A stretch of 61,952 bases of DNA from Bacteroidota bacterium. GTDB taxonomy: Bacteria; Bacteroidota; Rhodothermia; Rhodothermales; JANQRZ01. A program made the position numbers and the translations under genes. The DNA lies in NCBI GenBank assembly GCA_038746285.1, contig JBCDKT010000022.1:1-61952 (forward strand), given 5' to 3'. This document shows, piece by piece, positions 52,108-61,952 of the stretch; within the stretch, counting starts at the first letter, position 1; each line of letters starts with the position of its first letter. The notes below the pieces were generated by a model, which saw only the letters and a list, made by a program, of their open reading frames with translations, had not been told where the DNA came from and ran no database searches.

Positions 52108-52326
52108 TTAGGCGATCAAAACCAGAAGTTCGGAGAGTATACCTGCGCCGCCGAGCGTAGCGGCGGCTATCATCCCCGCTGCGAGTAGAAACATGAGCAA
52201 CAGGGCGAGCACTTTGATCGCCCAGTGCTCATTGGTCGGCACTTTGGTCCTCAGCAAGCCGAAGCAGAACTCTATGGCGGAGTCTTCTCCGGACTGGCGC
52301 GTGATAGGCGTTTCGTCGTTACTCAT
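52108..52326 (-). CDS. Small hypothetical membrane protein divergent from the CRISPR-Cas locus
   Basis: A 72-residue protein (MSNDETPITRQSGEDSAIEFCFGLLRTK...) whose C-terminal half is two closely spaced hydrophobic segments (WAIKVLALLLMFLLAAGMIAAATLGGAGILSELLVLIA). ATG 52326 is used; a longer in-frame version from 52491 would read through the crRNA-like element and is Cys-rich and improbable. No family was recognised. It shares its upstream region with the putative cas promoter. Confidence 0.55.
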   Translation of the reverse strand: MSNDETPITRQSGEDSAIEFCFGLLRTKVPTNEHWAIKVLALLLMFLLAAGMIAAATLGGAGILSELLVLIA

Positions 52327-52367: not shown

Positions 52368-52397
52368 TTGCGCTACAACAACAGTTTGCATTATGTT
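52368..52397 (+). promoter_or_regulatory. Putative promoter of the crRNA-like RNA and cas operon
   Basis: TTGCGC (52368-52373) and TATGTT (52392-52397), 18 bp apart, resemble a sigma-70 type -35/-10 pair. Transcription would start near 52403-52406. The -10 and start site lie inside the sequence matched by the guide of the crRNA-like element. A weak match to consensus; inferred mainly from position. Confidence 0.4.
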
Positions 52398-52410
52398 CTG
52401 GTCCTACGAA
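52388..52410 (-). promoter_or_regulatory. Candidate autorepression protospacer with TTC PAM
   Basis: Read on the minus strand, TTC (52410-52408) is followed by GTAGGACCAGAACAT (52407-52393). This matches 13 of the first 15 bases of the guide after the orphan repeat (GTAGGTCCAGACCAT), with mismatches only at guide positions 6 and 12. TTC is the known type I-C PAM. Pairing is poor after position 15, as expected for binding without cleavage. Confidence 0.7.
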
Positions 52411-52439
52411 CAACATCAGTAAGGTACTCCGCTCACAAC

Positions 52440-52533
52440 CCAGCGCGCAAGTGCCTTGTCCGGTGAGGATTGAAACGTAGGTCCAGACCATGCTGAGATG
52501 AATTGGCGGCGGCTCCTTCGGGGGTCGCCGCCA
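52440..52533 (+). ncRNA. CreR-like crRNA-resembling RNA upstream of cas3 (degenerate repeat, guide, capped hairpin)
   Basis: 52440-52476 aligns with the 37-nt array repeat. The last 13 bases, TGAGGATTGAAAC, are identical, GTC and a few other positions also match, and the stem region has diverged. The guide-like sequence starts at 52477 and runs about 27 nt. It is followed by a 13-pair hairpin (52504-52533) closed by a C(TTCG)G tetraloop, in the place where a mature type I-C crRNA carries its repeat stem-loop. The guide matches the promoter-proximal protospacer at 52393-52407. Known CreR RNAs let Cascade repress its own operon in this way; the role here is inferred from sequence alone. Confidence 0.65.
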
Positions 52534-52596
52534 GTTTGGAGGTTACGTTTTCAGTCTGCTCGTGTCTACGGTTCTGAATCATCCAACCCGCTTGTC

Positions 52597-54873
52597 GTGT
52601 CTGTTTCCCTGCACGCCCACACACCCAATGATCGCGACGAGTGGCATCCGCTGGACGCTCACCTCAGTGATGTGGCGGACGAAGCAGCAGATTTCGCCGC
52701 ACGCTTCGGGAAGGGCGAACATGCAAAGTCCGCTGCCGCGCTCGCCCGGTGGGCTGGTCTGTGGCACGATCTCGGGAAGGCATGGCCGGAGTTTCAGGAG
52801 TACCTCCTCGCGTGCGACCGTGCAAAGCGGGAGGGCCGGAAGTCGCCTTCATCGCCCGGCTCTCACGCAATTTGGGGGGCGATCCTCGCCCGACTTTGTA
52901 GGAAGAGCCTGGGGGATGCCTGGAAAGACCTCGCGCTTCCCATCGCCGCCCATCACGCCGGGCTGAAGTCGCCGGGGTCGTTGGAGCCGCAGTTGATGGA
53001 GGCCGCCGATGAGGCTGATCTGTCGCCTTATCACGAACTGGCTCGGCACCTGGAGGCCGGTGCCATGCAGCGATTCGCCGTGCCGGAGGATCCGCACCGC
53101 CGAGAGCTTCGCACTCGCATGGTACTCTCGGCCCTCGCCGACGCCGACTACCTCGACACGGAGCGCCACTTCAACGAGAAGAAAGCGGCGCGACGCGAAG
53201 GCTTCGAATCGCTCAACGTTCTCGCCGAACGACTGGAGCGAGCACAGCGGGATTTTATGGGCGGACTCGACGATCCCAACTCGGAGGTTAACCGGATTCG
53301 GCGCGAGGTCTACGATGCCTGCCTCGCCGAAGCGACGAGTTCACCGGGCTTCTTTCGGCTGACCGTTCCAACAGGTGGCGGGAAGACCCGGAGCGGTCTC
53401 GCATTCGCACTAGAGCATGCTCGCGCTAACCATCTCGACCGTGTCATCGTTGCCATTCCCTACACGAGCATCATCGACCAGACGGCGGCGGTCTACGCGG
53501 ACATCCTCGAGGTGCGGAACGTGCTCGTCCACCATAGCCAGACACCCGAGCCGCCGGAACAGGAGCGCGAGCGGCAGGACGAGAAGACCACGCTCCACCG
53601 GCTAGCGACGGAGAACTGGGATGCTCCACTCGTGCTCACGACGACGGTGCAGCTCTTCGAGAGCCTCTTCACTCGGTATCCCGGTCGCGCCCGCAAGCTT
53701 CACCGGCTCGCCCGGAGTGTGATCGTGCTCGACGAGGCGCAAGCACTTCCGCTCTATGTTCTCCTCCCCACGCTCGACGTGCTCCGCGCCCTCGTAGACG
53801 ACTACGGCGCAAGTGTTGTCCTTTGCACGGCGACCCAGCCCGGCTTCGAGCAGTCCGATGCGCTGCCGCCGATCCAGGGTGTCCCGATCACAGAGATCGT
53901 TCCGCAGCACCCCGATCACTTCGAAGCGCTGGAGCGCGTTCGTGTGGAACCTCGCCTCGGGCCGGTCCCACTCGCGCAGATTGCAGATGAGATCGTGGAG
54001 GAGCGTGGGTTGGACCAAGTGCTCATCATCCTGAACGCCCGGCGCGATGCGGTCGCACTCGCCGAGGAACTGCGCTTGCGGAAGGCCGAGGGGCTGTTGC
54101 ACCTTTCGACGCTGCTGTGCGGCGCGCACCGACGGCAGGTGCTCCGCCGGGTTCGGCAGCGGCTCGAAGCCGGGCTGCCGGTCCGGCTCATCTCGACGCA
54201 AGTCGTCGAGGCGGGTGTGGACATAGACTTCCCCGTCGTCTACCGTGCGCTCGGGCCGCTCGACCGGATCGTGCAGGCAGCGGGACGGTGCAACCGCGAG
54301 AACGACCTCGGGCACCGGGGCGGGCGGCTCGTTGTCTTCGAGCCAGAGGGCGGAGGGTTCCCCCGAGACAACCCGTACCGGAGTGGGACCGGCCTCGCCC
54401 GTGATGCGCTCCGTCACCGCGAAGAGCCACTCTCGAACGAGGCGCTCGACGAGTATTTCGGCCTGCTGTTCAGCGAGACCGGCGCGGGCGGCGAGCTCGA
54501 CAAGTACGGGGTGCAGCCTGCTCGGGGAGCGCTCGACTTCGAGACCACGCAGGAGCAGTACCGGCTCATCCCGCAGGACACGGTACCCGTGTTTGTGTGC
54601 CGCGACTGGACTGAGGACGACGCGCTCTCCGACGCCGCTCTGACGCGGCTCGCACGGTGGACCGAGAGCCCCGACCGCTACGCGTGGCGACGGCTCGGGC
54701 CGTTCACGGTCAGCGTGTACCGCCACCAACTCCGGGAATTCGAGGCAAGCCCTCACCTCGAAACCCTCGACGAGTTACTCCACGTCTGGCGCGGCTCTTA
54801 CGACAATTTACTTGGGCTGCCCCTCACGCTCGACGATCCAGCTGACCTCGCCTACGAACCTCTCATCTTCTGA
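52597..54873 (+). CDS. cas3: CRISPR-associated helicase-nuclease Cas3 (type I-C)
   Basis: A 758-residue protein with an N-terminal HD nuclease (HPLDAHLSDVADEA with H22, GLWHDLGKAWPEFQEYL with H57-D58, then SHAIWGAI and AAHHAG) and an SF2 helicase: VPTGGGKTRSGLAFALEHA (Walker A, about 258-265), AIPYTSIIDQTAAVY, VLDEAQALPLYVLLPTL (DEAQ, about 378), CTATQPGF, and VRLISTQVVEAGVDIDFPVVYRALGPLDRIVQAAGRCNRE (motif VI). It degrades DNA recruited by the Cas5c-Cas8c-Cas7 complex. GTG 52597 is chosen because the family starts about 15-20 residues before H-x-L-x-D/H. ATG 52498 would place the crRNA-like hairpin inside the coding sequence. Confidence 0.93.
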   Translation: MSVSLHAHTPNDRDEWHPLDAHLSDVADEAADFAARFGKGEHAKSAAALARWAGLWHDLGKAWPEFQEYLLACDRAKREGRKSPSSPGSHAIWGAILARLCRKSLGDAWKDLALPIAAHHAGLKSPGSLEPQLMEAADEADLSPYHELARHLEAGAMQRFAVPEDPHRRELRTRMVLSALADADYLDTERHFNEKKAARREGFESLNVLAERLERAQRDFMGGLDDPNSEVNRIRREVYDACLAEATSSPGFFRLTVPTGGGKTRSGLAFALEHARANHLDRVIVAIPYTSIIDQTAAVYADILEVRNVLVHHSQTPEPPEQERERQDEKTTLHRLATENWDAPLVLTTTVQLFESLFTRYPGRARKLHRLARSVIVLDEAQALPLYVLLPTLDVLRALVDDYGASVVLCTATQPGFEQSDALPPIQGVPITEIVPQHPDHFEALERVRVEPRLGPVPLAQIADEIVEERGLDQVLIILNARRDAVALAEELRLRKAEGLLHLSTLLCGAHRRQVLRRVRQRLEAGLPVRLISTQVVEAGVDIDFPVVYRALGPLDRIVQAAGRCNRENDLGHRGGRLVVFEPEGGGFPRDNPYRSGTGLARDALRHREEPLSNEALDEYFGLLFSETGAGGELDKYGVQPARGALDFETTQEQYRLIPQDTVPVFVCRDWTEDDALSDAALTRLARWTESPDRYAWRRLGPFTVSVYRHQLREFEASPHLETLDELLHVWRGSYDNLLGLPLTLDDPADLAYEPLIF

Positions 54874-54935
54874 ACATGATGACAGGCAGGCGGCAGACCT
54901 TCGCCGTTACTTGTTGCATGACTGTCCATCACACT

Positions 54936-55634
54936 ATGCCTGATCTCTCTGTCAGCGTCTGGGGCGACCTCGCCCTCTTCTCCCGACCGGACCTCCGCGT
55001 CGAGCGCGTGAGCTATCCCGTCATCACCCCGAGCGCGGCGCGCGGCGTTCTGGAAGCCATTTTCTGGAAGCCAGAGTTCCGCTATCGCATCCGCCGGATC
55101 GACGTAGCGAAGGCTGGGTCGACGGTGAGCGTGCTCCGCAATGAAATCAAGGACCGGCAGGGGGCCTCGCCCGTCGTCGTGGAGCGGGCGCGGACGCAGC
55201 GGACGGCGCTCATGCTCCGCGACGTGCGCTACGTGATCCACGCCGACCTCCGGCTCCGGCCCCACGCCACCGATCCCGTCGCCAAGTACGTCGAGCAAGC
55301 CGAGCGACACGTCCAGCGCGGCTCGTGCTTCCACCGGCCCTACCTCGGCACGCGCGAGTGCTCGGCTCACTTCGCGCCTCCCGGCGAGAAAGACGGCCCG
55401 AACGAGAACGTCAACCTCGAAGTGGGGACAATGCTGTTCGACCTCGCCTTCGTGCCGGGCAAGGCAAAGGGCGGGCTTTCGTTCCGTCGGCAGAACGGGA
55501 AGGAGAAGCGGGTCGTGAAGGGCCAGGCTCGCCCGCTCTTCTTCGACGCCCGCGTCGAGTACGGCGTCCTCGACCTGGAGCCGTTCCAGCACCTCTACAA
55601 CGAGATAGACCACCTCGAAGGCCATGCTGACTGA
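54936..55634 (+). CDS. cas5c: Cas5c (Cas5d), type I-C crRNA-processing endonuclease
   Basis: 232 residues from the ATG at 54936 (MPDLSVSVWGDLALFSRPDLRVERVSYPVITPSAARGVLEAIFWKP). In-frame ATGs at 54876 and 54918 exist but extend beyond the usual family start, which lies about 8 residues before the W/FGDxALF motif. A RAMP fold with the Gly-rich end is expected. In type I-C, Cas5c replaces Cas6: it cleaves the repeat and keeps the 5' handle (11 nt in studied systems), matching the conserved end of the repeats here. Other landmarks are YLGTRECSAHFAPP, MLFDLAF and ARPLFFDARVEYGVLDL. It overlaps cas8c by 11 bp. Confidence 0.93.
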   Translation: MPDLSVSVWGDLALFSRPDLRVERVSYPVITPSAARGVLEAIFWKPEFRYRIRRIDVAKAGSTVSVLRNEIKDRQGASPVVVERARTQRTALMLRDVRYVIHADLRLRPHATDPVAKYVEQAERHVQRGSCFHRPYLGTRECSAHFAPPGEKDGPNENVNLEVGTMLFDLAFVPGKAKGGLSFRRQNGKEKRVVKGQARPLFFDARVEYGVLDLEPFQHLYNEIDHLEGHAD

Positions 55635-57510
55635 ACTCTACGACCTCGGCCTCCGCCTGCGCGAGAAAGGCGAACTCCCACCGCCCGGCTTCGCCGACTA
55701 CGCTGCTCCGATCTGGTGGACGATCTCGCTCCGCCCGCCCAAGCACCCTGGCTACCCGCCTCAAGCCGAACTGAGCGAGAGAGGCGGCGCGCGCCCTCGG
55801 CCCGACAGTGGCCGGACGAGCGGCGTTCTCGCCTACCCTCTCGTTGACACGGCCGCTTATGTGCTGGGCCGCGATGAAAAGGACGATGGGAAGCAGGACC
55901 GCCAAGCTGCCAAGAAGCACGAGGCGTTCCGCCACCGACTCGACGAGGTAGCTGAGGCGATTGAGGACTCCGATCTCGTCGCCGCGATTCACCTTCTCGG
56001 TGACGCGCTCGACCAAGGCGTCCTCACCGAAGACCCACAGCTAGAGCAGGTCGCGGCCGACCACTGGGTATCAGTCCAGATGATGGACGGGCCGCTCAAA
56101 GGAGAGCACCTCTTCGAGCATGAGGCCGTTCGCCGGTGGTGGGCAGGGTGGCTCGACGCCGAGGTCAAGAAGAAGGGGTTCGAGGGGACGTGTTCGATCA
56201 CGGGCGAGCACCGGCCGCTCGTGGACCGCATTCCCGGCAAAGGTTACTTCCGGGGCAAGGCGTCGCTGCTCGGACTCAACGAGGATGCTTACGTCTCCTA
56301 CGTCGGAGGCGGAGGGGCGGCGAAGAAAGCGTCCATCGGCGTGAGTTACGACGCGGCTGACGTGGCGAACCGCGCGCTTGGGTATCTCGCCCGCTCGGAG
56401 CGGCACAAACGGACGCTCGTCTACGACAAGGAGAGCGACCTCCGCACGCTCACCGCTGTATTCTGGCTAGGGGAGGACGACCCGGTAGAGGTTTCGGGCA
56501 AGGGTGTCTTCGAATCGGATGACTTCCTCTCATCTCTCGGTGATGTGGTTGGGCGCGGCTTCGAGGACGAGGCGCCGGAGCGCGATCTCAAACAGATCCA
56601 CAACCTCCTGAAGCTTCCGTGGGCACCCAAGCGCGAGAGCTTGCGGCTGGATGAGGTCGGGTTTTACCTCGCCATCCTCTCGAAGAACGCCTACCGCGTC
56701 GTCGTGCGCGAGTGGCTGGCGCTCGACCTCGCGGACGTCAAGAAGAGGCTGGACGCATTCCTCGAAGCGACCAGCATCGTCCGACCGGGTGGAGGCGAGC
56801 CGCATCCTGTTTCGATCCAGCAGACGCTGAAGGCGCTCGATGGCGGGAGTCCGAATCTCGGGCGTGACCTCCTCCGCACTGCCTTCGCGGATGCGCCACT
56901 CCCGCAGACCATCCTCCAGCCGTGCCTCGCCCGGCTCCGCGTCCTCTTCGTCAAGGGCGACGCGCCGTGGTGGCAGGAGCACGCGCTCGCCGCCCTCCTC
57001 AAGCTCACCCTCTCTCACCAACCCGGTACTGCCATGACTGATTCTGCTGAACGAGAAAAAGCGTACCTCTGCGGAAAGCTCCTCGCGGTCCTCGGTCGCA
57101 TCCAGCAAGATGCTCTCACGACCGACAACGTTGTCAAAACTAAGGAGGGCGAAGAAGGCACCCCCTCAGCATCGCTCAACCGGACGGTCACTCAGCGTGT
57201 GTTCGCAGCGGCATCCACAGCCCCCGAGCCTTACCTGACGCCGCTTGTTCAGCGTGCGACTGTCGCGCATCTCCCTAAGCTCCCGGAAGGTCCCCAAAGG
57301 TCGAGCAAGCCGAATGAGAAAGACTATCGGTGGACACCGGATCGTGGGGAGCGCGAGCTGCGCGGGCTGATGGCGGAGATCGACAAGTCCGGTGGCTTCC
57401 CCCACATTCTAGACCTACACGGCCAAGCACAGTTCGCACTCGGCTTCTACCGGCAGCGCGCCGACTTCTTCTCATCATCCACCCCCGAGACCCCTTCCGA
57501 CCATGACTGA
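55624..57510 (+). CDS. cas8c: Cas8c (Csd1), type I-C Cascade large subunit
   Basis: A 628-residue protein beginning MLTELYDLGLRLREKGELPPPGFADYAAPIWWTISL, the Csd1 N-terminus. It contains VHQ-like CSITGEHRPLVDRIPGKGYFRGKASLLGLNEDAYVSYVGGGG (about 181-225), ADVANRALGYLARSERHK, TAVFWLGEDDPVE, LSKNAYRVVVREWLALDLADVKKRLDAFL, and the C-terminal LGRIQQDALTTDNVV, PYLTPLVQRATVAHLPKL and FALGFYRQRADFFSS. It recognises the PAM and recruits Cas3. Length is slightly above the usual about 570-600. It starts within the cas5c end and overlaps cas7 by 8 bp. Confidence 0.94.
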   Translation: MLTELYDLGLRLREKGELPPPGFADYAAPIWWTISLRPPKHPGYPPQAELSERGGARPRPDSGRTSGVLAYPLVDTAAYVLGRDEKDDGKQDRQAAKKHEAFRHRLDEVAEAIEDSDLVAAIHLLGDALDQGVLTEDPQLEQVAADHWVSVQMMDGPLKGEHLFEHEAVRRWWAGWLDAEVKKKGFEGTCSITGEHRPLVDRIPGKGYFRGKASLLGLNEDAYVSYVGGGGAAKKASIGVSYDAADVANRALGYLARSERHKRTLVYDKESDLRTLTAVFWLGEDDPVEVSGKGVFESDDFLSSLGDVVGRGFEDEAPERDLKQIHNLLKLPWAPKRESLRLDEVGFYLAILSKNAYRVVVREWLALDLADVKKRLDAFLEATSIVRPGGGEPHPVSIQQTLKALDGGSPNLGRDLLRTAFADAPLPQTILQPCLARLRVLFVKGDAPWWQEHALAALLKLTLSHQPGTAMTDSAEREKAYLCGKLLAVLGRIQQDALTTDNVVKTKEGEEGTPSASLNRTVTQRVFAAASTAPEPYLTPLVQRATVAHLPKLPEGPQRSSKPNEKDYRWTPDRGERELRGLMAEIDKSGGFPHILDLHGQAQFALGFYRQRADFFSSSTPETPSDHD

Positions 57511-58381
57511 GCACATCATCACCGACCCCGAGAAGCGTCACGACTTCGTCTTCCTCTTCGACGTCACCGACGGCAACCCCAACGGCGACCCTGACGGCGA
57601 CAACACGCCACGCTTCGACCCCGAGACCCGGCAGGGCCTCGTCACCGACGTTTGCATCAAGCGCAAAATCCGCGACTACGCCCACGAGATGGCCGGGGCC
57701 GACATCTTCATTCAGAGCGAGAAGACCCTCAATACGCGGATCAAAGAGGCCGCCGAGGCGAACGACATCCCGAAGCCAAAGAACAACAAGGTCGTGGTCC
57801 CCGAGCTTCAGGGACACGTCGCCGCGGCCTACCTCGACGTGCGTCTCTTCGGAGCCGTTCTCTCGACCGGCGACTACAACGCCGGGCAAGTGCGCGGGCC
57901 GGTGCAACTCACATTCTCGCGCTCGGTGGACCCGATCCTGCCTCTCTCGGTCACGATCACGCGGCAGGCGCGGACAACGGAGAAGCGGGCAGAAACGGGG
58001 AAGACTGAGATCGGGCGGAAGGCCATCGTCCCTTACGCGCTCTACCGAGGGCACGGGTTCTACAGCCCGCACCTCGGTGAGCGAGTCGGTGTCTCGCAGG
58101 AAGACCTCGCGCTCTTCTGGGAGGCGTTCGCCCGCATGTTCGAGTACGACCGCTCGGCGGCGCGTGGGCAGATGGTCCTCCGCGAGGCGTATATCTTCAC
58201 GCACGACAGTCCTCGTGGCAACGCACCGGCCCATCGCCTTTTCGAGCGCATCCGGTTCGAGGAGGCGAACGGCGATGTGCCGCGCTCCTTCGACCACTAC
58301 CGCGACCGGCTCATCGTGGACGAGGGCGGCCTGCCGGACACCATCGCGCTGACGAGGCTCACGGACGTAGCCTGGGGCTGA
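57503..58381 (+). CDS. cas7: Cas7c (Csd2), type I-C Cascade backbone subunit
   Basis: A 292-residue RAMP protein: KRHDFVFLFDVTDGNPNGDPDGDNTPRFDPETRQGLVTDVCIKRKIRDYAHEM at the N-terminus is a near-signature of Csd2. VVVPELQGHVAAAYLDVRLFGAVLSTGDYNAGQVRGPVQLTFSRSVDPILPLSVTITRQARTTEK and GRKAIVPYALYRGHGFYSPHLGERVGVSQEDLALFWEAFARMFEYDRSAARG also match. Several copies coat the crRNA and flip out every sixth base, relevant to the mismatch pattern of the element at 52440. It is the last gene of the interference block before the antisense toxin-antitoxin pair. Confidence 0.95.
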   Translation: MTEHIITDPEKRHDFVFLFDVTDGNPNGDPDGDNTPRFDPETRQGLVTDVCIKRKIRDYAHEMAGADIFIQSEKTLNTRIKEAAEANDIPKPKNNKVVVPELQGHVAAAYLDVRLFGAVLSTGDYNAGQVRGPVQLTFSRSVDPILPLSVTITRQARTTEKRAETGKTEIGRKAIVPYALYRGHGFYSPHLGERVGVSQEDLALFWEAFARMFEYDRSAARGQMVLREAYIFTHDSPRGNAPAHRLFERIRFEEANGDVPRSFDHYRDRLIVDEGGLPDTIALTRLTDVAWG

Positions 58382-58837: not shown

Positions 58838-59169
58838 GACGGCCCCTGCTCTCGGCGTGCGAACGGCTCGTCCCATTCGTCCCGGAGTGCGCGGAGGTCC
58901 CGGTCGATCTCGTCGGCGGTCCGGCCGCTCGGCGCGATCCCGAAGGCTTGGTCGAGCGGAAGCGGGGGAAGCGGTTCCAGTTCGGCGGCGGTCGGGAGGT
59001 CGTCGAGCGAGGATGGGGTCGCAGTCTCGTCCGGCGGTGCGCCGTCGCCGGACGGCTCGGGGAGCAGGATGATGACCTCGGCGTCGGTGCCGGCGGGGAG
59101 GGCGTCGTCCTGGAGCTCGATGCGGCCGCCGGGCTGGACGCGGACGCGCTTGCGGAGGGCCTTGTTCAT
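58834..59169 (-). CDS. vapB: VapB-like antitoxin with AbrB-type N-terminus
   Basis: A 111-residue acidic protein. Residues 1-37 (MNKALRKRVRVQPGGRIELQDDALPAGTDAEVIILLP) look like an AbrB/MazE swapped-hairpin DNA-binding domain. The middle is a Pro/Glu/Asp-rich linker, and the C-terminus (RTADEIDRDLRALRDEWDEPFARR) is an amphipathic helix that would wrap the PIN toxin active site. It is encoded just upstream of the toxin with a 4-bp overlap. Its start is only 24 bp from the divergent cas4 start, so its autoregulated promoter must overlap cas4 control sequences. Confidence 0.8.
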   Translation of the reverse strand: MNKALRKRVRVQPGGRIELQDDALPAGTDAEVIILLPEPSGDGAPPDETATPSSLDDLPTAAELEPLPPLPLDQAFGIAPSGRTADEIDRDLRALRDEWDEPFARREQGPS

Positions 59170-59193
59170 AGGTCGGTGCAGAGGGTCTGGCCG

Positions 59194-59862
59194 GTGAACG
59201 ATTTCTCAGCCCATCGGATCCAGAGCAGTGGCTCGCCCGGCGGCTGGCGTGACGCCGAGGTCGTCCCGATCTCGGCGCTCCAGCACTACGCCTACTGCCC
59301 CCGGCAGTGCGCGCTGATCCACGTCGAGCAGGTGTGGGACGAGAACATCTACACGCTCCGCGGGCGGCGGGCGCACGGGCGGGTGGACACGCCGAAGGGC
59401 ATGACCCGCGACGGCCTCCGCACAGAGCACGCGCTCCCGCTCTTCTCCGACGCGCTCGGTCTCGCGGGCCGCGCCGACGCCGTCGAGTTCGAGGCCGACG
59501 GGACGCCGTTCCCGGTCGAGCACAAGGTCGGGAGCCGGAAGAAGGGCGGGCTCGCCCGGCGGGCCGACGAGGTGCAGCTCTGCGCGCAGGCGCTCTGCCT
59601 GGAGGAAATGTTCGAGCGTGATGTGCCCGCCGGAGCGCTCTACTACCGCAAGAGCCGCCGCCGCCACGAGGTCGCGTTCTCGAGCGCGCTCCGGGTGGAG
59701 ACGCAGGAGGTCATCCGGAAGACGCGGGGGCTGCTGCGGGTGCGGCGGCTACCCCCGCCCGTGGCCGACGCACGCTGCCCGCGCTGCTCGCTCATCGAGA
59801 CCTGCATGCCCTACGTCGTCGAGCGCCTCGGCGACGGCGAACCGAACGACGAAACGCCATGA
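59194..59862 (+). CDS. cas4: Cas4 exonuclease (type I-C)
   Basis: 222 residues from GTG 59194, the nearest plausible start before the conserved VVPISALQHYAYCPRQCALIHVEQVWDEN. The first Fe-S cysteine is in YCPRQC, and the C-terminal cluster is ADARCPRCSLIETCMPYVV. RecB-type nuclease residues are GRADAVEFEADGTPFPVEHKVGSRKKG and DEVQLCAQALCLEEMF (Q motif). Cas4 trims prespacers and selects the TTC-type PAM with Cas1-Cas2. It is chained to cas1 by an ATGA overlap. Because the toxin-antitoxin pair is antisense upstream, the promoter for cas4-1-2 is uncertain. Confidence 0.92.
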   Translation: MNDFSAHRIQSSGSPGGWRDAEVVPISALQHYAYCPRQCALIHVEQVWDENIYTLRGRRAHGRVDTPKGMTRDGLRTEHALPLFSDALGLAGRADAVEFEADGTPFPVEHKVGSRKKGGLARRADEVQLCAQALCLEEMFERDVPAGALYYRKSRRRHEVAFSSALRVETQEVIRKTRGLLRVRRLPPPVADARCPRCSLIETCMPYVVERLGDGEPNDETP

Positions 59863-60896
59863 CAACGCAGCTCCTCAACACGCTGTTCGTGCAGACGCAG
59901 GGGGCCTACCTCCGGCTCGACCACGAGACGCTCCGCATCGAAGCGCCGGACGAGGACGGGGAGAAGGAACTCAAACTCCGCATCCCGCTGCACCACCTCG
60001 GCGGAGTCGTCGTCTTTGGGAATGTGCTGCTGAGCCCGTACCTCCTCGGACAGTGCGCCCGCGACGGGCGCGAGGTGGTGTGGTGCTCGCGGAGCGGGCG
60101 GTTTCAGGGCCGGCTCGCGGGGCCGGTGTCGGGGAACGTGCTGCTGCGCCGCGCCCAGCACCTCGCGCTCTCGGACCCCGCGATCACGCTGGAACTCGCG
60201 CGGCAGTTCGTACTCGGCAAGGTGCGGGGGGCGCGGACCGTGCTCAAGCGGGCACTCCGCGAAGACACCGGCGATGCCGCTACGCTCGAAGCCGCTGTCG
60301 GGGCGCACGACGAGGCGATTTACCGGCTGCGGGGCGCAGACTCCGTCGAGACCGTCCGGGGTGAGGAGGGACAGGCAGCGGCCGTCTACTTCGCCGTGTT
60401 CCATCACCTCATCGGACCCATCGACTTTCGCTTCGACGGGCGCAACCGGCGGCCCCCGCGCGATCCGGTCAACGCGGCACTCTCGTTCGTCTACACGCTC
60501 GTCCGGGGCGACTGCGCGGCGGCGCTCGAAAGCGTCGGGCTGGACCCGCAGGTGGGGTACCTCCACGTCCTCCGCCCGGGTCGTCCGGCCCTCGCGCTCG
60601 ACCTGATGGAGGAGTTTCGCGCGTGGTGGGCCGACCGGCTCGTGCTGACGCTCATCAACCGGAAGCAACTTGGGCTTCAGCACTTCGAGGCCCGGCCCGG
60701 CGGAGCGGTCTACCTCAGCGAGACCGGGCGCAAGGAGGTGCTGACTGCATACCAGAAGCGCAAGCAGGAGACCGTCCGCCACCGGCTCTTCAAGGAGGCT
60801 GTGCCCGTCGGGCTGCTCCCGTTCGTACAGGCGCGTCTCCTCGCCCGCCACCTTCGCGGCGACCTCGACGCCTACCCGCCCTTCCGCGCCCGCTGA
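59859..60896 (+). CDS. cas1: Cas1 integrase (type I-C)
   Basis: A 345-residue protein. The N-terminal beta domain is LLNTLFVQTQGAYLRLDHETLRIEAPDEDGEKELKLRIPLHHLGGVVVFGNVLLSPYLL. The catalytic C-terminal domain has the conserved Glu in EGQAAAVYFAVF (about 168), His in VGYLHVLRPGRPALALDLMEEFR (about 232), and Asp in ALDLMEEFR (about 245). With Cas2 it integrates new spacers at the leader end of the array that begins at 61367. Length and motifs match type I-C Cas1. It is translationally coupled to cas4. Confidence 0.96.
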   Translation: MTTQLLNTLFVQTQGAYLRLDHETLRIEAPDEDGEKELKLRIPLHHLGGVVVFGNVLLSPYLLGQCARDGREVVWCSRSGRFQGRLAGPVSGNVLLRRAQHLALSDPAITLELARQFVLGKVRGARTVLKRALREDTGDAATLEAAVGAHDEAIYRLRGADSVETVRGEEGQAAAVYFAVFHHLIGPIDFRFDGRNRRPPRDPVNAALSFVYTLVRGDCAAALESVGLDPQVGYLHVLRPGRPALALDLMEEFRAWWADRLVLTLINRKQLGLQHFEARPGGAVYLSETGRKEVLTAYQKRKQETVRHRLFKEAVPVGLLPFVQARLLARHLRGDLDAYPPFRAR

Positions 60897-61366: not shown

Positions 61367-61952
61367 GTAGCAGCCGGCCCCCAGGTCGGCTGAGGATTGA
61401 AACCGCGAGAAGGCAAAGGTGCATCACCCCGACGTGGTAGCAGCCGGCCCCCAGGTCGGCTGAGGATTGAAACGGATTCGTGGCGACGAGGGCGTTTTCG
61501 TAGACCGTAGCAGCCGGCCCCCAGGTCGGCTGAGGATTGATACACGGAGCACTCCGTCAGCCGGTCCCGGTAGAACGCCAGTAGCAGCCGGCCCCCAGGT
61601 CGGCTGAGGATTGAAACGCGTCGTCGAGTTGCGCCTTGATCCGCAGCAGGTCGTGTAGCAGCCGGCCCCCAGGTCGGCTGAGGATTGAAACGAGCCTGTC
61701 ACGTCGTGTAGCATCTCCGTCTCCGGGGTAGCAGCCGGCCCCCAGGTCGGCTGAGGATTGAAACGCACTCAGCGCGTGCGCCCTCAGCGCCTCCTCCTGC
61801 GTAGCAGCCGGCCCCCAGGTCGGCTGAGGATTGAAACTGTGTGGCAAACGGCGTCCCGTTGTCCGAGCGAATCGTAGCAGCCGGCCCCCAGGTCGGCTGA
61901 GGATTGAAACCTCACCAACCGAGAATCATCATGCCAGACACGAAGGGTAGCA
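61367..61952 (+). CRISPR. Type I-C CRISPR array, 8 full repeats plus a partial ninth at the window edge
   Basis: The repeat is 37 nt: it begins GTAGCAGCCGGCCCCCAGG, ends TCGGCTGAGGATTGAAAC, and has a CAGCCG/CGGCTG stem. Copies start at 61367, 61437, 61507, 61581, 61655, 61728, 61801 and 61874; the ninth begins at 61947 and is cut by the edge. Spacers are 33, 33, 37, 37, 36, 36, 36 and 36 nt, all different. The repeat at 61507 has one substitution (A to T at 61541), giving GATAC instead of GAAAC within the crRNA handle. The ATTGAAAC end and the position after cas2 agree with type I-C and with transcription from the leader. Confidence 0.98.

Follow-up and report, generated by a model that had tools for sequence, protein, structure and literature searches.

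The window, by which we mean the whole 61,952-nucleotide stretch analysed here, carries a type I-C operon in the order cas3, cas5c, cas8c, cas7, cas4, cas1 and array, and the element described in this report lies in the 630-nt gap between this operon and an epimerase-like gene. All features of the operon are on the plus strand. The cas3 gene (52597-54873) has a probable GTG start and is followed by cas5c (54876-55634, TIGR01876), cas8c (55624-57510, TIGR01863), cas7 (csd2; 57503-58381, TIGR02589), an ORF (58948-59862) with cas4 at its residues 107-288 (TIGR00372) and a type I-C cas1 (59859-60896, TIGR03640). The CRISPR array (61367-61952, RF01322) has 37-nt repeats, identical copies of which are also found on contig C75 of the draft genome, and in an Rfam scan the gathering score was reached by the array repeats only. 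The GTG at 52597 is the most likely start of cas3, since the N-terminus read from there (VSVSLHAHTP) aligns with that of another Cas3 (MERFYAHTP, locus L031), and this would place the guide and the hairpin described below in the cas3 leader. A start at ATG 52498, by which the guide would be cas3 coding sequence, is unlikely for the same reason. Divergent from the element, on the minus strand, is a 72-codon ORF (52111-52326; MSNDETPITRQ...LLVLIA) with a C-terminal hydrophobic segment and a coding-like GC content by codon position (57/43/71). For this possible alternative target gene, a search of 113 genomes of the order gave nothing beyond a single weak frame that contains stops, and neither Pfam nor viral contigs gave a match. 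In G000, contig C77 (L178) holds a second CRISPR array, the repeat of which is different, and also encodes a distant Cas1 (37% identity).

Upstream of cas3, at 52464-52476 of the plus strand, stands an orphan repeat 3' end, TGAGGATTGAAAC, which includes the 11-nt handle AGGATTGAAAC. It is identical to the last 13 nt of the 37-nt array repeat and is solitary, about 8.9 kb away from the array. All other copies of this 13-mer in the 4.1-Mb draft genome belong to array repeats (28 exact copies and one more with a mismatch), and the reversed pattern is absent from that genome. The first-pass annotation had placed a degenerate repeat at 52440-52476; the exact 13-nt 3' end stands, but the 5' half (52440-52463) bears no evident resemblance to the array repeat. 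There is no second repeat within 100 nt of the orphan handle, and the element is thus not an ordinary CRISPR array.

The guide, GTAGGTCCAGACCAT, starts at 52477 (52477-52502, plus strand). At positions 1-15, except 6 and 12, it pairs with a protospacer, GTAGGACCAGAACAT, which is read on the minus strand from 52407 to 52393 and is flanked by the PAM TTC (52408-52410, minus strand; plus-strand letters GAA). Both the coordinates and the letters of this match, which had been put forward as 13/15 positions beside a type I-C PAM with pairing that fades after position 15, were verified, the pairing being found to end at 15, and the observation of an orphan handle with a guide and a PAM-flanked self-target is confirmed. 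TTC followed by GTAGGNCCAGANCAT has a single perfect match genome-wide, namely the target at 52407-52393. The run of 13 matched read positions beside TTC is to be compared with a maximum of 7 in 3000 first-order Markov regions, or with a longest run of 10 in the same regions when any PAM was allowed.

In place of a second repeat, a UUCG-capped hairpin is found at 52500-52537 of the plus strand. This structure, already present in the first-pass annotation, is genuine and strong (-29 kcal/mol, z -6.6), and it is the proposed 3' boundary of the RNA. In the structure of the type I-C Cascade, Cas5c processes the crRNA and holds its handle, and the crRNA has no 3' stem-loop (PMC7684278), which makes a role as 3' boundary more probable for the hairpin than one as an essential component of the complex. 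On the other side of the guide, a possible imperfect stem, CAGCGCGCAAG/CTTGTCCGGTG (52441-52465, plus strand; 9 pairs, 2 mismatches), ends exactly at the 11-nt handle, and as it is equalled in 12% of shuffles it is not significant alone.

Type I-C loci were collected from genome collections by Cas5 and Cas1 similarity, and orphan handles with at most two mismatches were sought in the cas3/cas5 flanks of 141 non-redundant loci (230 stretches, 120 kb), of which 28 were found. Targets within 250 nt of a handle were ranked by their matches at read positions, with the PAM disregarded. At least 13/15 matches were reached by 10 targets, and TTC flanked nine of these; 58 shuffled-handle controls with 285 sites gave no TTC target at this level. 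The nine TTC elements are those of the window, of L030, L044, L045, L034 and L085 (cyanobacteria), of L082 (Armatimonadota), of L031 (Rubrobacteraceae) and of L220, whose genome was taken from the Dictyobacter phylum. A GAAAG handle is found in two further elements, those of L172 and L173, from the same order as the window. Similar matches with other PAMs were left uncounted (L080 and L068 with TTT, L230 with TTA, L247 with GTT), as was the 15/15 match of L076, the PAM of which is CTC. TTC matches farther away, at +471 in L081 and +589 in L244, have position 6 paired.

Most of these elements consist of a handle, a guide and a GC-rich hairpin that starts about 20-47 nt past the guide start, and among the other elements a second repeat is seen in L031 only. 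A stem flush with the handle is present in L085, L030, L044, L045, L172, L173 and L076; its sequence varies between lineages, and several of the handle-flush stems outside the window have shuffle P values of 0.00-0.04. The placement of the target varies. In the window, L082, L172, L173 and L220 it precedes the element and is on the minus strand. L031 also has it upstream, on the plus strand, and in the cyanobacterial loci it is downstream of the element, likewise on the plus strand. The gene that follows is cas5 in L173 and L220; in L031 and the window it is cas3. A small ORF stands between target and cas5 in the cyanobacterial loci, so that something other than a cas gene may be repressed in these, and an HNH-like ORF intervenes before cas5 in L082. 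The core of the original reading, a crRNA mimic with a PAM-flanked self-target, limited pairing, a hairpin and cas genes downstream, thus recurs with the same anatomy in independent type I-C loci of several phyla. The supposed peculiarity to Rhodothermota does not hold, the distribution being much wider.

Some further elements and genes were noted in the course of the survey. The HNH-like ORF of L082 (7616-7870), between guide element and cas5, could be cargo or a toxin gene driven by the same promoter, and the small ORFs at L085:7786 and L045:1335, between target and cas5, look mutually related. At L080:4832-4900 two tandem handles with near-identical short guides have a TTT-flanked match just upstream of cas5. 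Four cyanobacterial loci (L243, L245, L246 and L247) have in common an orphan handle and the guide TC[AG]TTTTGTTAT[AC]TGC, about 550-720 nt upstream of cas5; in L247 the match at +584 is 15/15 by read positions with the PAM GTT. On the Bacteroidota side (same GTDB phylum), L160, L163, L165 and L170 carry orphan handles with guides common to different species and several elements per locus: TATGATTATGATTGTT in L160, L163 and L165, AATCTTTATGC in L160 and L165, and GAACA.AAATATGAATACCGA in all four.

The first-pass annotation had also proposed a comparison of guide and promoter among relatives, and this could be carried out in part. Among the genomes compared, the two nearest relatives, G340 (same genus) and G414 (same family), gave no type I-C match, and G179 and G030 (same order) have type I-C loci with no orphan handle upstream of cas3. 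Compensatory changes are seen in L172 and L173, which belong to one genus: positions 1 (A/G) and 3 (T/A) of the guide differ between the two loci, and the targets differ identically, by which the pairing is kept. Two compensatory changes in one comparison are suggestive rather than strong evidence of covariation. In the handle-free locus of G179 (L139), the gene immediately upstream of cas3 resembles one for a WYL-domain regulator; a protein may thus take the place of the regulatory RNA there.

The position of the mismatches is informative in its own right. In type I effectors every sixth base of the guide is flipped out and is not read. Since the scoring of the survey was blind to positions 6 and 12, targets were chosen anew, this time by TTC and by identity across all of positions 1-15. 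In the 11 elements with at least 11/15 matches, the mismatches at positions 1 to 15 numbered 1, 1, 1, 1, 0, 11, 1, 2, 0, 0, 1, 11, 0, 0 and 0, i.e. positions 6 and 12 were mismatched in 22/22 cells, where 75% would be expected under neutrality, and every other position had 0-2 mismatches. When no more than one mismatch was permitted outside one phase of six, 11/11 elements passed at phase 6 and none at phases 1-5. The handles used for the register were listed from earlier scans, which makes this a test on a chosen set, and the independent control is that of the shuffled handles. L081, with its target at longer range, matches at both 6 and 12, and its inclusion gives 22/24 in a tally of 12 elements (P 0.04). 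Judged from these alignments, the mismatches at 6 and 12 are the expected footprint of the 6-nt register of a type I effector, as had been suggested for the window and as is now seen to recur in independent type I-C loci. A register this strict also raises the possibility that positions 6 and 12 are selected against pairing.

The promoter under the target is less clear. The best plus-strand candidate, TTGCGC-N18-TATGTT (52368-52397), is weak: its score of 6.4 is close to the 95th percentile for background stretches of 150 bp, and a stricter consensus gave no promoter in the interval. A minus-strand candidate, CTGATG-N18-CATAAT, with its -10 at 52395-52390, is equally good and overlaps it, and the protospacer overlaps the best -10 candidate of either strand. 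The -10 that had been proposed for the transcript with the element and cas3 is thus a weak candidate, and the opposite strand offers one as good. In L082 the target covers the TATAAT of TTGACA-N18-TATAAT upstream of the element, and near-consensus promoters are also present at the targets of L044, L172 and L173; in L082, L172 and L173 the target covers or adjoins a near-consensus promoter of the transcript that carries the element.

Taken together, we consider it likely that the element is a single-repeat, CreR-like RNA of type I-C, which directs the effector to the promoter of the very cas3 transcript that contains it, and from the sequence features we infer its transcription, processing, loading, repression and lack of cleavage as follows. 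A transcript starting near 52400 would comprise, in that order, the degenerate repeat, the handle, the guide, the stable hairpin and cas3. The 5' end would arise at the handle, through cleavage by Cas5c or in some other way, and the hairpin would set the 3' end. The RNA, loaded by Cas5c-Cas8c-Cas7, would direct the complex through TTC and about 15 base pairs to the promoter at 52407-52393, where the bound complex would block the transcript that holds the RNA and cas3, and hence the operon. The pairing would be too short for a full R-loop, so that the site would be spared from Cas3. Because ordinary crRNAs would compete for the same proteins, repression should ease when crRNAs are abundant or when effectors are lost.

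The main rival to autorepression of cas3, though an unlikely one, is an addiction module of the CreTA/CrePA kind, in which the guide RNA represses the divergent promoter of the 72-codon hydrophobic ORF, whose product would be toxic if the effector were lost. The target does overlap the minus-strand -10, CATAAT, which is as good as the plus-strand one, and the ORF, with its coding-like GC content, its hydrophobic segment and its lack of homologues, would be consistent with such a module, as would the HNH-like ORF of L082 and the other small ORFs that follow the target in cyanobacteria. The 72-codon ORF is, however, a putative gene only, and in L173, L220 and L031 cas5 or cas3 comes directly next, where an extra gene is unneeded. 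Less probable still is that one bound complex represses both divergent promoters, by which cas3 and the small ORF would be controlled together; the target does cover the best -10 candidate of each strand, but each promoter is weakly predicted. That the element is a leftover repeat of a former array, its guide match being accidental or without function, is very improbable: the 5' half of the repeat is indeed eroded, but the handle, all 13 read positions and the PAM are intact, the probability of this by chance is negligible, and the same pattern of erosion around intact functional parts recurs in unrelated loci. A relic repeat with a chance match is rejected on the basis of the uniqueness of the target in the genome, the Markov regions, the shuffled handles and the register at 6 and 12. 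Solitary repeat units of type I-C do act as RNA anti-CRISPRs (PMC10651486), but a Racr-like RNA from a mobile element that disables the effector is the least credible explanation here, as the element stands in the cas operon leader, its guide has a chromosomal PAM-flanked target, and the handle-guide sequence is in no viral contig searched.

Beyond autorepression of cas3 in the window, it is tempting to speculate, although here our confidence falls short of even, that these elements form a widespread class of single-repeat regulatory RNAs of type I-C with handle, guide and capped hairpin, which in several loci would lie within the leader of the repressed transcript, each RNA being excised from the cas mRNA, and in which selection may act against pairing at positions 6 and 12. 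If the proposed autorepression is true, type I-C, which is among the commonest CRISPR subtypes, joins the systems with RNA-guided self-repression and does so with a minimal element of one repeat, and the mismatches at 6 and 12 provide a simple sequence test for finding more elements. Another consequence would be that cas expression in these hosts may rise when an anti-CRISPR disables the type I-C effector. The control of type I-C operons becomes directly testable by promoter fusion.

Several known systems resemble the element in some respects. Shmakov et al. 2023 reportedly described standalone repeats and mini-arrays, that is, repeat-like elements in CRISPR loci with guides against promoters. 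Our element falls in the same bioinformatic class, and type I-C cases may already be listed there. In the literature searched no type I-C case was found described, which is no proof of absence, and the novelty of a single-repeat element of type I-C is provisional. CreA of CreTA (Li et al. 2021) and CrePA (Shu et al. 2025) are said to involve a crRNA-like RNA that represses a promoter by partial complementarity; in contrast to these, there is no established toxin gene here, the divergent 72-codon orphan ORF being a candidate only. The natural single guide tracr-L autoregulates Cas9 (Workman et al. 2021, cited in PMC10651486), reportedly through a shortened match. It shares with our proposal a CRISPR effector guided to its own promoter, but is a type II, tracrRNA-derived single guide. 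The Racr solitary repeat units (PMC10651486) have a single repeat and type I-C examples in common with our element, but are encoded by viruses or plasmids, apart from cas genes, and inhibit rather than guide, while the repeat studied here is immediately upstream of cas3.

The closest comparison is with CreR (cas-regulating RNA, Liu et al. 2023), which is described for types I-B, I-E and V-A (as cited in PMC13131331; see also PMC12737573). Like CreR, the element would give a crRNA-like RNA encoded at a cas locus, with a degenerate repeat and a limited, PAM-flanked complementarity to a cas promoter, which in the window is a putative one. In the window the 13-nt handle is identical in sequence to the array repeat, so that recognition by the cognate effector is predicted, and the seed-proximal match upstream of the cas genes comprises 13/13 read positions beside TTC. 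The element differs from CreR in its type I-C context with expected processing by Cas5c and no Cas6, in its place upstream of cas3 in the same direction, and in its architecture, since CreR is a two-repeat mini-CRISPR, whereas here one repeat is followed by the UUCG hairpin. As the element would work like CreR but has a hairpin in place of the second repeat of the mini-CRISPR, we regard it as a variant of CreR.
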